Shown here: positions 17,496-25,363 of the stretch, one piece after another
How positions within the stretch are numbered: the first letter of the stretch is position 1
How the letters are laid out: each line of letters starts with the position of its first letter
Assembly: GCF_025353885.1 (NCBI RefSeq)
Contig: NZ_JANXNX010000106.1
Span: forward strand, 1 to 34,483
From: Sphingomonas sp.
Lineage (GTDB): Bacteria > Pseudomonadota > Alphaproteobacteria > Sphingomonadales > Sphingomonadaceae
DNA: 34,483 nucleotides
Reading direction: 5' to 3'
Position numbers and translations under genes: made by a program
Notes under the pieces: model-generated
The model's input: the letters and a program-made list of their open reading frames with translations, nothing else
Databases searched by the model: none
Told to the model about the DNA's origin: nothing

Positions 17496-18311
17496 ATGGC
17501 GCGACTGTGGATTTTCGGACTGGGCTACACCGCGTCGCGGATTGCTGACCGGTTGCGCGCCGACGGGTGGGACGTGGCAGGCACTGGCCGTGCGGGCTCT
17601 TCGTTCGAGGATGAGGCCAGGGTGCGCGCTGGGGTGGGCCTGGCAACGCACGTCCTGTCATCGGTGCCGCCCGATGCAGATGGCGACCCAGTGATGGCGC
17701 GTTATGGTGACATACTAGGGAAGTGCTGGCTCGGTTACCTTTCCTCCACCGGGGTTTACGGCGACACCGGCGGCGCGTGGGTGGACGAAAGCGCGCCAGT
17801 CAGGGGCCGCCGCGCCAACCGCAACCGGGCTGACCTCGACTGGCAGAAACTTGGCGCACATGTGTTTCGTCTGCCCGGCATCTATGGGCCAGGACGCTCG
17901 GCGCTGGACCGCGTGGCCGAAGGCAAGGCCCATCGCATTGGCCTGTCCGATCAGATTTTCAGCCGGGTCCATGTCGACGATATTGTGAGCGGCGTGGTTG
18001 CTGGCATTGCGGCTCCCGCAGGAATATATAATCTTGCGGACGATTATCCGACTTCGCAAGACGAGGTGATCGAGGCGGCGGCTGCATTGCTGAACCTGCC
18101 AGCGCCGCCGTTCATCGCACTCGACAGCCTGTCACCGATGGCGCGCAGTTTTTATGCCGAGAACCGCCGCGTGGCAAACGGCAAGGCGAAACGCGTTCTC
18201 GGATGGCAACCGCGCTACGCCGATTTTAGGACTGGCTTGCGGCTCCTGAGCGCGATCACGAGCCCAACCAGCGTTACGACGGCGCCCGACCCGGCCAGCA
18301 ACGTCCAGTGA
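17496..18311 (+). CDS. NAD(P)-dependent epimerase/SDR-like protein (YeeZ-like)
   Basis: A 271-residue extended-SDR protein: LWIFGLGYTASRIADRL is the Rossmann glycine motif, followed by YLSSTGVYGDTGG with the active-site region, FRLPGIYGPGRS and RVHVDDIV. It most resembles the YeeZ-type NAD-dependent epimerases of unknown substrate. ATG 17496 is chosen because GGAGGCGAGGG lies 5 bases upstream. The first 60 or so residues after the Rossmann strand are shorter than in classical epimerases. The last 97 bases run into the convergent transporter gene, so the final part of the protein is probably a tail created by read-on into that gene. Confidence 0.82.
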   Translation: MARLWIFGLGYTASRIADRLRADGWDVAGTGRAGSSFEDEARVRAGVGLATHVLSSVPPDADGDPVMARYGDILGKCWLGYLSSTGVYGDTGGAWVDESAPVRGRRANRNRADLDWQKLGAHVFRLPGIYGPGRSALDRVAEGKAHRIGLSDQIFSRVHVDDIVSGVVAGIAAPAGIYNLADDYPTSQDEVIEAAAALLNLPAPPFIALDSLSPMARSFYAENRRVANGKAKRVLGWQPRYADFRTGLRLLSAITSPTSVTTAPDPASNVQ

Positions 18312-19132
18312 TAATGTTCGAATAGCGTGGACAGCAGCATCGCCAGGACCGGCGTGATAACGCTGGAATAAGCAGCGCGCGCGGGACCGATGGCCCTGAT
18401 CACGCTGAAGTAACAGGTAAATGCGACGGCGCTCGCCATGACCCCCAGATACAGCACGCCGCCGAGATAGGTGGGTGTCAATTCGATAACGGGCGCGCCG
18501 GTCGTGGCCAGCCCGACACCGGCATTGATCGCCGCGCCCCAAACCATTCCCCAAGCCAGCATTCCCGCCATTGGCATGGCCCGAGCAGCATTTGTTCCCT
18601 GCAGGACATTGGCGGCCGACGCAGAAAGTACGCCAAGGAGGGTCAATCCCACGCCGACGATCGAGGCATGGCTGCTAGCATCATCCCCACGCGCCTCTTG
18701 CAGGATCAACAGCCCGACACCGACCAAGGCGATCATCGAACCGAACAGAAACCGCCCGGTCAGCGGTTGCTTCAGGAAGATGCTTCCGAAGATTGCATTT
18801 GGAACGATCAAAAGCGCAAATACGACTGCGACCAGACCGGAGGTGATCAGCCCTTCGGCCTGATAAACAAAATTAAAGTTGAGGAAGAACTGTGTGAAGC
18901 CCAGCAAGGCGGCAAAGCACTGTTCTCTGCGGTCGAGCTTCAGCGGCGCTCCAGTGGCGATGGCATGGATAGTAATTGCCACGGCGCCGACGAGAAAACG
19001 ATAGCAAACCGACCAGTTGGGAGGCACCACGCCCAGTTGGCCGCGGATAACGATCCAGGTCGAGCCCCAGATAATCGTCGCCACGGCAAAGGGTATCAAT
19101 ACCCGCGCTGTCAGCATTGGGGCTTTGGTCAA
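18215..19132 (-). CDS. EamA/DMT-family transporter
   Basis: A 305-residue integral membrane protein with about ten hydrophobic helices arranged as two EamA repeats, typical of drug/metabolite exporters such as those for amino acids. The opening PFAVATIIWGSTWIVIRGQ and the second-repeat segment LGVMASAVAFTCYFSVI are characteristic. It starts at TTG 19132, one base after the threonine aldolase stop codon; ATG 19117 is an alternative. Co-transcription with the aldolase fits export of an amino acid such as threonine or glycine, but that is inference. Its 3' end overlaps the convergent epimerase gene by 97 bases. Confidence 0.88.
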   Translation of the reverse strand: MTKAPMLTARVLIPFAVATIIWGSTWIVIRGQLGVVPPNWSVCYRFLVGAVAITIHAIATGAPLKLDRREQCFAALLGFTQFFLNFNFVYQAEGLITSGLVAVVFALLIVPNAIFGSIFLKQPLTGRFLFGSMIALVGVGLLILQEARGDDASSHASIVGVGLTLLGVLSASAANVLQGTNAARAMPMAGMLAWGMVWGAAINAGVGLATTGAPVIELTPTYLGGVLYLGVMASAVAFTCYFSVIRAIGPARAAYSSVITPVLAMLLSTLFEHYHWTLLAGSGAVVTLVGLVIALRSRKPVLKSA

Positions 19133-19133
19133 A

Positions 19134-20135
19134 TCACAGGTTTTTCAAGGCGGCTGCGAGCGCATCAATCTCTGCCTGAGGCTGGTCCCAAGATATTACG
19201 AAGCGCGCCTCGCCCGGCCCCCAGTCGTAAAAATCAAAGCCCTGCGCACGAAGCGCGGCGGCCTGGTAGGCGTCGAGCGTAACGAAGACCTCGTTCGCCT
19301 CGGCCGGGTGAAGCAGGCGGCCCGCCGCCGCCGCTGCCAACTGGGTCGCGCCCGCGTTGGCAGCGCGAGCGGTGGTCAACCACAGATCGTCGTCCAGCAT
19401 CGCCAGCAACTGGGCCGCCTGATACCGTCCCTTCGACGACAAATGCCCGGCGCGCTTGCGACGGACACGAAGCTCGTGCACCAGGCTCCGGTCGAAAAGG
19501 ATCAAAGCCTCTGCCGACAGTCCGCCGTTCTTGATGAAGCCGAAACTCAATGCTTCCACGCCACTGCGCCACGTCACATCCGCGGGGGCCGCGCCGGTAT
19601 GCGCGATCGCATTAGCAAATCGCGCGCCGTCCATATGGAGCCGCAGGCCACGCGTCTTGGCGAGCGCGCCGATTGCCGCGACTTCCTCCGGCGCATAGCT
19701 TTGGCCATATTCGGTAGCATTGGTGATCGAAATCGCTGCGGCCTGCGTTCGGTGAACGTCGTTAGCGATCCCGTCCAGCAACACGTTGATCGTGCCGGGC
19801 GTCAGCTTTGCAGCATTACCGTCCGCAAGCAGAAGCCTGGCTCCCCCGGAATAGAACTCCGGGGCACCTGCCTCGTCGTTCTGGATGTGCGCGTCCCGGT
19901 GGCAAACGATCCCGCGATACGGCGGACACAGCGCCGCCAGTGCCAGCGAATTAGCCGCCGTCCCCGTCGCCACCCACAGAGCGCAGACCTCGGTCTCAAA
20001 CAGGTCAGAGAAAGCTGCATCCAGCGACTGGCTTAGCGCATCGCCGTCATAGGCAGTATCAACCCGATTGGCGCGCGCAATCGCGTTCAGGACGGCCGGA
20101 TGAACAGAGGCCGCATTGTCAGAAAAGAAACGCAT
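19134..20135 (-). CDS. Threonine aldolase family, PLP-dependent
   Basis: A 333-residue fold-type I PLP enzyme of the beta-eliminating lyase/threonine aldolase family, which cleaves L-threonine or L-allo-threonine to glycine and acetaldehyde. MRFFSDNAA opens the family pattern, ATGTAANSLAL binds the cofactor phosphate, HMDGAR has the PLP aspartate D169, and K202 in FIKNGGLSAEA is the Schiff-base lysine. GGGG lies 4 bases upstream of ATG 20135. It precedes the transporter gene with a one-base gap. Stereospecificity (low-specificity L type) cannot be judged from the sequence. Confidence 0.9.
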   Translation of the reverse strand: MRFFSDNAASVHPAVLNAIARANRVDTAYDGDALSQSLDAAFSDLFETEVCALWVATGTAANSLALAALCPPYRGIVCHRDAHIQNDEAGAPEFYSGGARLLLADGNAAKLTPGTINVLLDGIANDVHRTQAAAISITNATEYGQSYAPEEVAAIGALAKTRGLRLHMDGARFANAIAHTGAAPADVTWRSGVEALSFGFIKNGGLSAEALILFDRSLVHELRVRRKRAGHLSSKGRYQAAQLLAMLDDDLWLTTARAANAGATQLAAAAAGRLLHPAEANEVFVTLDAYQAAALRAQGFDFYDWGPGEARFVISWDQPQAEIDALAAALKNL

Positions 20136-20224: not shown

Positions 20225-20647
20225 CTAAGCGCCGAACCGTTCCTTGAGCGCCATCATCGCGAGGGCGGCCCTGGCGGCTTCCCCGCCCTTATTCTTTTCA
20301 TCGGGACGCGCGCGGGTCAGCGCCTGGGCTTCATTTTCGACGGTGAGGATGCCGTTGCCGATTGCCAGGCCATCCATCGTCAACGCCATGACCCCACGCG
20401 CGCTTTCTCCGGCGACGATTTCAAAGTGATATGTTTCGCCGCGGATGACTATCCCCAAGGCGACATAGCCGTCGTAGCGCCCACTTTCCGCCGCCAGGGC
20501 GATCGCGCCCGGAATTTCGAGCGCGCCCGGCACCGTGATCGTGTCATGGTGGTGACCCGCGTTATCAAGCGCTTCGCGTGCACCCTGTAGCAGCAGATCG
20601 TTGAGCGGGGCATAGAACCGCGCTTCGATGATAAGCAGTTTTGCCAT
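20225..20647 (-). CDS. ribH: 6,7-dimethyl-8-ribityllumazine synthase
   Basis: A 140-residue enzyme that condenses 3,4-dihydroxy-2-butanone 4-phosphate with the ribitylaminouracil intermediate to give lumazine, the penultimate step of riboflavin synthesis. [12 protein letters not shown] and [14 protein letters not shown], with the active-site histidine, are the family signature. Its ATG shares one base with the TAA stop of the upstream ribB fusion (TAATG), so translation is coupled: one gene makes the four-carbon substrate and the next consumes it. Confidence 0.96.
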
Positions 20648-21948
20648 TAATTCATTTCCGGTCCGGGGATTGGGCGTTCGCCGATTATGGACAGGCCGTA
20701 ACCGTCGAGCGCGATGAGGGTATGGTGAGTATTGGTCAGCAGGATCATGTCCTGTACGCCCAATTCGGCAAGAACTTGCGCCCCGACGCCATAATCACGC
20801 AATTCTTCTACTTCGGGCGCGCCAGAACTCTTGCCTTGCGCCCGCAGGTTCATCGCGCGGCTCAAACCGTCCTGCATGGTGCGATTGATGACGACAATAA
20901 CGCCGGCACCGTCCTCCGCGATGACTTTCATCGATCCTGAGAGTAGTCCCGATCGGCCATTCTCTTCGCCGAACGTGTCAACGAAGATCGAATGCGTGTG
21001 CATGCGCACCAGCGTCGGTTTGGCGGGGTCGATATACCCTTTTACCAATGCGACCGTTTCGTCGCCGGTTGCCTTGTTATAGAATGTCATCGCGGTCCAG
21101 TCGCCGCCCCAGCGACTGACAAACCGCATCTCGGTACGCTTTTCGATCAGATGGTCATGCTTTTGCCGAAAAGCGATGAGATCGCGGATCGTCCCGATCT
21201 TCAGGCCGTGCAAGCGGGCAAACGCGGTCAGGTCACCCATCCGCGCCATGGTGCCGTCATCCTTCATGATCTCGCAGATCACGCCTGACGGGTTAAGGCC
21301 CGCGAGACGCGCGACATCGACCGCTGCTTCGGTATGACCGGCGCGTGCCAGCACGCCGCCTTCACGTGCGATTAGCGGAAAGACGTGGCCGGGTGTCACG
21401 ATGTCGCCGGACCCTTTACTGGCGTCGATGGCAACCGAAATGGTGCGCGCGCGGTCAGCGGCCGAAATGCCGGTCGTGACGCCTTCGCGCGCCTCGATCG
21501 AAGTCGTGAACGCGGTTTCGTGCCGGGTCCCGTTGGCACGGCTCATCAACTGCAAGTCCAGAGTGTCGACGCGCGACTTGGAGAGGGCAAGGCAGATTAG
21601 CCCGCGTCCGTGTGTCGCCATGAAGTTGATTGCGTCCGGGGTCGCCATCTGGGCGGGAATAATGAGGTCGCCTTCATTTTCCCGGTCTTCGTCGTCCACC
21701 AGGATAAACATCCGACCATTGCGGGCCTCGTCGATAATGTCCTCGATCGGCACCAGCGACGGGGTGTGGTCGTTCGACAACAGATATGCCTCAAGTTTGC
21801 GCAACGTGTCCGCCGTGGGATTCCACGTAGGAGAATCGAGATCACGCAGACTGTTTGCATGAAGGCCCGCTGCGCGCGCGAGACCGGAGCGCGAAACCCC
21901 TCCGCCGGCGACATGGTCTCTTAGTTTTTCAATAAAGGATGTGTTCAT
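20647..21948 (-). CDS. ribB: HTH-RibB-RibX fusion: 3,4-dihydroxy-2-butanone 4-phosphate synthase with N-terminal helix-turn-helix and degenerate RibA-like domain
   Basis: A 433-residue protein with three parts. Residues about 1-58 look like a Cro/XRE-type [22 protein letters not shown] being the helix-turn-helix, followed by [14 protein letters not shown]. Residues about 65-265 are a complete DHBP synthase: [10 protein letters not shown] with the metal glutamates, GHVFPL, and RAGHTEA. Residues about 275-433 resemble GTP cyclohydrolase II but contain no cysteine: VRMHTHS stands where RibA has VRxHSEC, and the CxC of the zinc site is missing, as in the RibBX variant described in proteobacteria. 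The protein should therefore make DHBP from ribulose 5-phosphate but not open GTP. It lies downstream of tRNA-Thr and translates into ribH. There is no ribosome-binding site; the predicted transcript starts at the ATG. Confidence 0.9.
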
Positions 21949-21953
21949 TACCC

Positions 21954-21983
21954 AAGATAATCACATCGTAGTGTGATCGTCAA
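21954..21983 (-). promoter_or_regulatory. Predicted ribB promoter, leaderless
   Basis: On the minus strand, TTGACG (21978-21983) and TATCTT (21954-21959) are separated by 18 bases. Only GGGTA lies between the -10 hexamer and the ATG at 21948, so a normal start distance of 6-8 bases puts transcription at the A of the ATG. This agrees with the missing ribosome-binding site. Confidence 0.55.
21960..21977. promoter_or_regulatory. 18-bp palindrome filling the ribB promoter spacer (candidate operator)
   Basis: ATCACA and TGTGAT form perfect 6-bp arms around a 6-base centre. The palindrome coincides exactly with the spacer between the predicted -35 and -10 elements of the ribB fusion gene. A bound dimer would block RNA polymerase. 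The obvious candidate ligand is the gene's own N-terminal HTH. It is not a Crp site, because the half-sites are in the opposite order (TCACA-N6-TGTGA). Confidence 0.55.
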
Positions 21984-22084: not shown

Positions 22085-22159
<75 letters not shown>

Positions 22160-24530: not shown

Positions 24531-24555
24531 AACTTCGATCAATTGCGATGGTTCC
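24531..24555 (-). promoter_or_regulatory. Possible EcfG-type promoter, one mismatch
   Basis: On the minus strand GGAAC (24551-24555) is followed after 16 bases by AGTT (24531-24534), one mismatch from the GGAAC-N16-CGTT consensus. It is about 50 bases upstream of the small gene starting at 24479. Confidence 0.35.
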
Positions 24556-24613
24556 TGATATAGCTGGTTGCAAGAACGAAACTGTGCCGGAAGGTGCGCA
24601 AGATGGAGGTGGG

Positions 24614-25363
24614 ATGCTTACCAGCCGGTTTTTGATGGGACGCCATCGCGAGGATTTGAGCGAGCATGAATTGGAGGCGCTGGAGCGTGCCGTCGGCTCA
24701 GTCACCACCTATGCGGCGCGCGAGGAGCTGGTACATCACGGCACGGAAATCCATCACAGCATGTTGCTGGTCGAAGGGTTCGTGTGCCGCTACATGGATG
24801 GGCTGGATGGCCACCGCCAGTTGGTCGCGCTGCACGTCCCAGGTGACTTTGTCGATCTGCATGGTTTTCCCCTGAAACGCCTGGACCATGACATCGCCTC
24901 GCTGACGGAGGTGAAAGTGGCCAACTTCCCGCATCCGGATTTATCGCGATTGATCGTCCAGCACCCCAATCTGGGAAGGATGCTGTGGTTCAGCACCTTG
25001 CTAGACGCCGCCATGCACCGTGAATGGATTTTCCGGCTTGGTCGACTGGGAGCCATTGGCCGGGTCGCGCATTTTTTTGCGGAGGTTGGCAGGCGACTGC
25101 AGATGGTCGGCTTGAGTGACGGGTCTTTGTTCCCGCTGCCGCTCCACCAGTCGGACCTGGCCGAGGCCTGCGGGATCACCACGGTCCACGTCAATCGCGT
25201 CCTTCGCGACCTGCGCGAACGTAAGGTCGTGAATTTCAAAGCTGGGGAGGTCGTTGTCCACGACATTTTGGCACTTCACGCGCTTGCCGAGTTTGACGAC
25301 AGATACCTTTACCCGTCCGCGGCCACCCAGCCAGAGGCCAAAGAGAAACGCCGCCACCCGTAA
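24614..25363 (+). CDS. Crp/Fnr-family transcriptional regulator
   Basis: A 249-residue regulator: an N-terminal cyclic-nucleotide-binding-like barrel (HHSMLLVEGFVCRYMDG, LHVPGDFVDLHGF), a long dimer helix, and a C-terminal winged HTH with LHQSDLAEACGITTVHVNRVLRDLRE as the DNA-binding unit. No FNR-like N-terminal cysteine cluster is present, so it does not sense oxygen through an iron-sulfur centre. The effector is unknown. ATG 24614 is chosen because GGAGG lies 4 bases upstream; an open extension to 24548 is not conserved in appearance. Its end overlaps the terminator hairpin of typA. Sphingomonads carry many such paralogues. Confidence 0.9.
   Translation: MLTSRFLMGRHREDLSEHELEALERAVGSVTTYAAREELVHHGTEIHHSMLLVEGFVCRYMDGLDGHRQLVALHVPGDFVDLHGFPLKRLDHDIASLTEVKVANFPHPDLSRLIVQHPNLGRMLWFSTLLDAAMHREWIFRLGRLGAIGRVAHFFAEVGRRLQMVGLSDGSLFPLPLHQSDLAEACGITTVHVNRVLRDLRERKVVNFKAGEVVVHDILALHALAEFDDRYLYPSAATQPEAKEKRRHP

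Follow-up and report, generated by a model that had tools for sequence, protein, structure and literature searches.

A Sphingomonas HTH-RibB fusion gene with a conserved palindromic operator inside its predicted leaderless promoter: a probable autogenous repressor

Introduction

A stretch of 34,483 nucleotides from Sphingomonas sp. (NZ_JANXNX010000106.1, hereafter the window) carries a ribB gene with two unusual features. About 60 residues stand ahead of the enzyme part of its product, and an 18-bp palindrome lies exactly between the two boxes of its promoter. The question raised by this locus is whether the enzyme is the reader of the palindrome and so the regulator of its own gene. A first-pass annotation, made from the letters of the window, had proposed a compact autoregulatory circuit of this kind. 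The locus was compared here with its relatives in the family, order and class and in viral genomes.

Results

The ribB-ribH locus

The following features were assigned in the window.

20225..20647, minus strand: ribH (lumazine synthase), its start overlapping the ribB stop (TAATG)
20647..21948, minus strand: HTH-ribB gene, an open reading frame of 433 codons (433 aa)
20674..21135, minus strand: degenerate GTP cyclohydrolase II domain (the X of RibBX), cysteines of stand-alone RibA lost
21172..21744, minus strand: DHBP synthase (RibB) domain, Pfam PF00926, E 4.5e-82
21769..21948, minus strand: N-terminal HTH domain, residues 1-60, Cro/C1-like by alignments, model and fold search
21946..21948, minus strand: ATG start codon and predicted transcription start (leaderless), 12 nt past the palindrome core
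21954..21959, minus strand: -10 element TATCTT, from sequence and promoter scan
21960..21977, no strand assigned: operator O1, ATCACA-N6-TGTGAT, filling the -35/-10 spacer, conserved in HTH-ribB relatives
21978..21983, minus strand: -35 element TTGACG, from sequence and promoter scan; TTG is the commonest triplet there in 97 aligned relatives

The ribB stop and the ribH start overlap by one base, so the two genes are probably co-transcribed. Downstream of them on the same strand were beta-eliminating-lyase and EamA transporter genes (18215-20135). A CRP-family gene was present at 24548-25363. The X domain of the window protein was missing the cysteines of the stand-alone RibA of the same genome, and any cysteine at residues 301-360 was found in three of 43 relatives. 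A RibB joined to a cyclohydrolase-like domain without zinc cysteines is what we take to be a RibBX-type enzyme, and the window protein was classed as one on this basis. HTH residues A24, G28, L29, H30, N32, L34, R35, W42, N43 and P44 were invariant in 43 proteins. Conservation was 0.80 in the turn region of the HTH compared to 0.64 in the X domain.

Read on the minus strand the order upstream of the gene is TTGACG, ATCACACTACGATGTGAT, TATCTT, GGGTA and ATG, and the promoter scan returned the identical two boxes. The spacer is the palindrome ATCACA-CTACGA-TGTGAT (21977-21960), with both 6-bp arms perfect. Two claims of the first-pass annotation were confirmed here. The boxes are 18 bases apart with a palindromic spacer, by sequence and promoter scan alike, and the window ATG has no ribosome-binding site, as no Shine-Dalgarno-like stretch was present before it. 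Five bases separate the -10 element from the ATG. Sigma-70 transcription starts about 7 nt past the -10 element, which puts the predicted start at or beside the ribB ATG. Given the five-base gap and the conserved promoter-ATG spacing, a start at the ATG itself is a reasonable prediction. The window is among the few of the 97 aligned relatives with T in place of A at core position +17, so the -10 element can be read as TATCTT (18-bp spacer) or TTATCT (17 bp). Immediately upstream of the promoter is a tRNA-Thr(GGT) gene (22085-22159, minus strand); ribE takes this place in some relatives.

Conservation of the operator with the HTH

Taken alone the promoter was unremarkable, with a score of 9/12 and 3 such sites found in 6 kb against 1.9 expected. 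Palindromes with up to three mismatches were also at background level (6 found, 9.2 expected). The exact core TCACA-N6-TGTGA occurs once in the 2.76-Mb genome of the window, at ribB; with up to one mismatch there were 10 sites compared to 14 for the reversed control. The operator was judged real because it is conserved in relatives. This ruled out a chance palindrome despite the background level of looser ones.

The ribB search covered 196 genomes of the order, from which 130 ribB places were taken for examination of their 5' regions. These were the best-scoring 131 among the matches listed, with G042 left out. The best core match was scored from -150 to +30 of each ribB. A core with at most one mismatch was found in 97/102 HTH-ribB loci compared to 0/28 HTH-less loci. 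Mismatches in the former numbered none in 87, one in 10 and two in five loci. Among the latter no locus had none or one, a single locus had two, and 27 had three to five. Shuffled sequences reached none or one in 17 of 2,600 cases. The co-occurrence of HTH and operator had a Fisher p of 1e-23 with kinship ignored, the loci being non-independent through kinship.

A tree of RibB enzyme cores was built from 63 loci. These were 70 loci less L014, L017, L174, L176, L186 and L192, where the anchor pattern was unmatched or the frame unusable, and L170, which was left out of the tree. The HTH label needs six changes on this tree. Across five independent HTH contrasts (the starred branches) the operator changed in parallel in 4.6 on average and in the opposite direction never. 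The sign test on independent pairs gave a median p of 0.0625 with a range to 0.25, short of 0.05. Some lines that the tree places inside groups of HTH carriers had neither HTH nor operator.

A second set was obtained by an HTH-only scan of named genomes, from which the best 80 of 589 confirmed relatives were taken. It included Sphingomonas, Novosphingobium, Sphingorhabdus, Sphingosinicella, Erythrobacter and other genera. The core was present with at most one mismatch in 80/80 of these (77 without a mismatch and three with one). The frame was a fused HTH-RibB in 79/80, and the remaining locus, L319, ends at a contig end. The second set is partly independent of the first, 75/80 upstream regions being new by string comparison. 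The palindrome was therefore found in front of HTH-ribB genes of relatives, together with the HTH, as the first-pass annotation had expected.

Geometry of the promoter in relatives

A limit of one mismatch over the ten core letters was used to select the 97 aligned loci, and independent evidence comes from the other positions alone. Alignment on the core gave TTG at -7 to -5, the palindrome (consensus ATCACATTnnaATGTGATA) and TA at +16/+17, that is TTG, N3, 17 bp and then TA. Frequencies in the -35 triplet were T.61, T.72 and G.51. Unselected positions were conserved at core +5 (T.85), +6 (T.81), +10 (A.80), +16 (T.79) and +17 (A.89), while the flanks of the site varied.

The first in-frame ATG was 11-15 nt past the core in 78/97 loci and in 70/80 of the second set (best 80 of 589), and at other distances in 19/97 and 10/80, respectively. 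A Shine-Dalgarno-like stretch was present in 1/70 second-set loci with the ATG at 11-15 nt. With a loose pattern one was found between core and ATG in 14/97. The variant distances and these stretches indicate that the leaderless start is not universal. It looks conserved in most HTH-ribB relatives, where the leaderless geometry of the first-pass annotation was kept, the start being predicted. In five Sphingomonadales loci (L282, L285, L287, L289 and L294) the downstream one of two in-frame ATGs, 45 nt from the operator core, is preceded by GGAGG, and the upstream one lies at the leaderless distance of 12 nt. These genes possibly have two starts, one leaderless and one leadered.

In 62/97 loci a second half-site, ATGTGAT with at most one mismatch, was found upstream, 19-23 bp before the start of the core. 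The reversed control motif gave 0/97 at the same tolerance. In the best 80 of 589 it was found 20-23 bp upstream in 68/80, and 11/472 control windows had it anywhere in 35 positions. Three loci of the first set had it at 42. The distance from half-site to half-site is mostly 31-32 bp, or 52, which is about three or five helical turns and places both on one face of the DNA. No second half-site (O2) was recognisable upstream of O1 in the window.

Distribution of HTH-RibB and the FMN riboswitch

From the names of the relatives, the family of the window is evidently the Sphingomonadaceae in the broad sense. Among the matches listed, HTH-RibB was found in 102/113 genomes of the family and HTH-less RibB in ten, with no match in G157. 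The operator was absent in all ten HTH-less genomes, and two genomes with a second, HTH-less copy had none at that copy. Nine of the ten HTH-less genomes had the ribE stop between 26 bases inside and 1 base before the predicted ribB start. The ribE pattern was unmatched in the tenth (G053), though its upstream DNA resembles a ribE end. For 12/47 HTH genes a ribE end was located within about 600 bases upstream, and the core lay between the two genes in 10 and overlapped the ribE end in two. No HTH was found in 16 ribB loci of other families examined in the order. In a class-wide search several of the matches listed reached before residue 60, and the five 5' regions examined (G341, G333, G382, G535 and G348) had no HTH.

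Two genomes of the same genus as that of the window (G254 and G662) had no HTH match among those listed. G254 had a weak cyclohydrolase-domain match alone to HTH-RibB, so its ribB has perhaps been replaced or is absent from the assembly. In Novosphingobium sp. ES2-1 an HTH-ribB gene with the exact core upstream is located on a 620-kb plasmid (NZ_CP063446.1; L236 3001-4275, plus strand). It adjoins AarF-kinase and redox-enzyme genes, with no further rib gene within the 6 kb examined.

The Rfam scan of the window gave a tRNA as its sole match, with neither RF00050 nor another leader element. Under strict filters the FMN riboswitch (RF00050) was found in 0/113 family genomes. An FMN riboswitch or other Rfam leader element was rejected on these two results, in line with the first-pass claim that no such riboswitch could fit. 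The riboswitch was present in 16/196 genomes of the order. As 67/83 genomes of other families had neither fused HTH nor riboswitch, the HTH is not simply a substitute for the riboswitch and the two are not simple alternatives.

Other copies of the operator

The exact sequence ATCACA-N6-TGTGAT was found at 41 sites in 39 of 119 family genomes; the reversed control gave none. HTH-ribB accounted for 36/41 of the sites, 15 being placed by positions from the ribB search, five in loci examined and 16 by positions from the second search. The other five were in G219 (contig C20), G071 (a second site), G276, G264 and G208. No visible HTH gene adjoined the site in the first three. In G264 (contig C21) the exact site (L205 1495-1512) is followed after 17 bp by a gene for a terminase large subunit, and an HTH gene was absent in the 3 kb examined. 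This site is either chance or a phage operator. A wider regulon was not seen, given the single exact core in the genome of the window and the 36/41 family sites at HTH-ribB.

Prophage and viral relatives of the HTH

Both RibB copies of G208 are without the HTH, and the exact operator of this genome led to a prophage. The prophage stretch also occurs as a 38-kb IMG/VR contig. On it is a gene for a stand-alone protein of 68 aa that is related to the RibB HTH. A further relative was found in Pseudanabaena phage Pan3.

L231 4712-4915 and L234 3001-3204, plus strand: stand-alone HTH gene in the cro position of the sphingomonad prophage
L235 6001-6186 (ON968454.1 31047-31232), plus strand: cro-like frame of Pseudanabaena phage Pan3, unannotated, with annotated genes on the opposite strand

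Upstream of the prophage HTH gene are TCCCATCTTGATGTGA and TCACATTCAGATGTGT, 31 bp apart, followed by the ATG at the same distance as in ribB. A further tandem operator pair, also spaced 31 bp, is 2.8 kb away. Divergent to this gene is the frame of a CI-type repressor, which combines a Cro/C1-type HTH with Peptidase S24, so the gene occupies the cro position. The ribB gene itself is not divergent from a CI-type repressor. An HTH match was found in 197/249 family genomes, and that of G208 was the only free-standing one among the matches listed.

The Pan3 frame lies beneath two genes annotated on the opposite strand. Its HTH is 44-48% identical and the frame is divergent from an HTH-S24 frame. 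The palindrome AGCATAT-N4-ATATGCT, different in sequence, is in the same register as the ribB operator, and a second half-site (6/7) is 31 bp upstream. The recognition segment is RIHRNTLNG compared to GLHANTLRD, and the ATGTGAT half-site was absent from the Pan3 stretch. The Pan3 HTH as a query gave no match in viral contigs.

Six viral loci were found. One was the known prophage, L239 and L240 were the same, and L238 had no clear start or palindrome. Three further distinct viral relatives had TTG, and in the same register each had a stretch resembling a palindrome, with 5, 4 and 6 of 7 arm positions matching. In random DNA a score of 5 in registers 11 or 12 is reached in 3% of cases, and the palindrome of L241 in the fixed register is weak (4/7). 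A second half-site was seen in the prophage and Pan3 and, weaker, in L242 (5/7, at 32). Cro-like divergence was present in three of five distinct viral relatives, from a Cro/C1 HTH with Peptidase_S24 in L234 and Pan3 and from a Cro/C1 HTH in L242. An operator scan of viral contigs gave 18 stretches, and by the motif pattern an HTH was encoded in one alone of the stretches examined, the known prophage. The others were mostly AT-rich, probably chance, and were rejected.

By sequence the prophage gene links the operator to the HTH and not to RibB. It suggests that the geometry of promoter, operator and ATG belongs to the HTH. Promoter, operator, leaderless start and HTH would then be one module common to ribB and small phage genes.

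Fold of the HTH

The HTH of the window matched no Pfam profile. Those of three relatives matched HTH_3, HTH_26 or HTH_31 with E 0.0025 or weaker, under the curated cut-offs, and further profile searches were likewise weak. A model of the HTH alone had a mean pLDDT of 81 and three helices, with no regular helix at the expected place of the recognition helix. The full-length RibB model was set aside due to pLDDT below 50 at 114-127 and 129-203. With the HTH model the first Foldseek rows were mostly Cro/C1 (XRE) regulators, at weak E values of at least 0.17. The top VIA-align rows were HNF-1A (Z 7.7 and 6.6) and MuB (6.6). XRE regulators, controller proteins, AcrIIA15 and phage repressors followed at Z about 5.5-6.5, where a Z under 8 may reflect merely a common arrangement. 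Neighbours by Foldseek and VIA-align included restriction-modification controller proteins. The modelled fold is compatible with Cro/C1 regulators, and the assignment as a Cro/C1-like HTH rests mainly on homology to the phage proteins in the cro position.

Discussion

HTH-RibB is likely an autogenous repressor of its own ribB-ribH promoter. The anatomy of the promoter, its conservation, the co-occurrence of operator and HTH, their joint absence and the phage counterparts were all observed. Binding, repression, the mRNA start, the geometry of the dimer and an effector are what we infer from them. The DHBP synthase domain is dimeric, as established for the family. A RibB dimer, joined through this domain, would bind O1 with its paired N-terminal Cro/C1-like HTH domains. 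Because O1 is located between -35 and -10, the bound protein would exclude RNA polymerase and shut off the ribB-ribH transcript, predicted to start at or a few bases from the ATG. Cooperative binding of two dimers would be possible in most relatives, where the second site lies about three helical turns further upstream. The window gene would use O1 alone, without a cooperative partner site. Such a loop would keep the amount of RibB, and of RibH, constant. Binding could possibly be modulated by a ligand of either enzyme domain, RibB or X, along the lines of the substrate or product effect suggested in the first-pass annotation, and this part is put forward tentatively. The compact autoregulatory circuit of the first-pass annotation is supported by the co-occurrence, by the joint absence in nested lines and by the link of HTH to operator in the prophage, all at the level of sequence comparison.

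HTH-RibB may instead read the operator and activate, or do both at different concentrations. Activation or dual action is known for phage CI at OR2 and for restriction-modification controller proteins on tandem sites. Many relatives have tandem sites three turns apart, and controller proteins are among the fold neighbours of the HTH. Activation and repression by HTH-RibB cannot be told apart from sequence. The position of O1 between -35 and -10 in the consensus of the 97 relatives is nevertheless a repressing one, and the window has the HTH yet no recognisable O2. Activation or dual action is unlikely for these reasons. It is less likely still that another regulator, for example of the CRP/FNR type, reads the palindrome and that the RibB HTH has another function. 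The window does have the CRP-family gene noted above, and TGTGA/TCACA half-sites look CRP-like, but their order here is the reverse of that in a CRP site. Such a reader would also have to account for an operator that is missing upstream of all 28 HTH-less ribB examined and that precedes a stand-alone HTH gene in the prophage, and a single exact genomic site ill suits a global regulator. It is very improbable that the main role of the HTH is to titrate or localise the enzyme, with a leaderless promoter geometry inherited along with it and marginal regulation: DHBP synthase should far outnumber the need of one operator and some lineages keep ribB without HTH and operator, but the unselected operator positions are conserved while the flanks vary, ten HTH residues are invariant, and the turn region is better kept than the X domain.

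Autogenous repression by HTH-RibB has partial precedents. PMC5293562 describes trifunctional PutA, an enzyme with an N-terminal DNA-binding domain that doubles as an autogenous repressor. The two are alike in joining a metabolic enzyme to an N-terminal DNA-binding domain and in autogenous repression, which is predicted for HTH-RibB. PutA differs in its ribbon-helix-helix fold, its proline-catabolic pathway and its proline-driven membrane switching. HTH-RibB is a vitamin-biosynthetic enzyme with a predicted leaderless promoter and without a known ligand switch. As expected of an autogenous repressor of the PutA type, it has a DNA-binding domain fused to a complete enzyme and a conserved, co-inherited operator at its own promoter. 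RbkR, an archaeal HTH-riboflavin kinase, regulates riboflavin genes and likewise combines an HTH with an enzyme of flavin metabolism. It is archaeal with another enzyme domain, whereas HTH-RibB is bacterial and built on DHBP synthase. BirA (HTH-biotin ligase) is a biosynthetic enzyme doubling as a repressor; unlike HTH-RibB it regulates a separate operon, has a defined corepressor and is an unrelated enzyme. HTH-RibB shares with RibBX the DHBP synthase and the X domain without the cysteines of stand-alone RibA, and adds the N-terminal HTH. Also comparable are the Cro-type regulators of phages and the controller proteins of restriction-modification systems, small HTH proteins of the Cro/C1 fold with palindromic sites at their own promoters. 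The cro-position relatives in the sphingomonad prophage and Pan3 share sequence and geometry with HTH-ribB. Unlike HTH-RibB the viral relatives are stand-alone proteins of 61-68 aa with no enzyme fusion. In many bacteria ribB or another rib gene is under the control of the FMN riboswitch (RFN, RF00050), according to passages of PMC13028884. The riboswitch is a leader RNA, whereas HTH-ribB has hardly any leader, no RF00050 match, and a DNA operator with a protein. A literature search of open-licence papers gave none that describes a regulator of the HTH-RibB kind, and passages of the riboflavin reviews PMC12542839 and PMC13028884 do not describe one.

The origin of the arrangement may lie in a phage. 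A whole cro unit of a phage, with its promoter, its tandem operators at a 31-bp spacing, the leaderless start and the reading frame of the HTH, could have been captured by an ancestral sphingomonad. Through in-frame fusion to ribB this phage-type switch would have come to control vitamin B2 synthesis. Prophage and host ribB might then cross-regulate, since the present-day prophage still uses the identical operator. This origin is possible but rather doubtful, because the HTH tree, with its long branches, does not show whether the transfer ran from phage to ribB or the other way.

Few enzymes act as repressors of their own genes, and there is something to learn from every one of them. If HTH-RibB is one of them, riboflavin synthesis would be under protein-based control across a family in which the FMN riboswitch was not found (113 genomes). 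The anatomy is simple, an operator inside a leaderless promoter and a DNA-binding domain at the N-terminus of the enzyme, and comes down to one protein and one DNA fragment. It would also tie the regulation of a housekeeping gene to a phage regulator with an identical operator, a traceable case of module exchange between phage and host.
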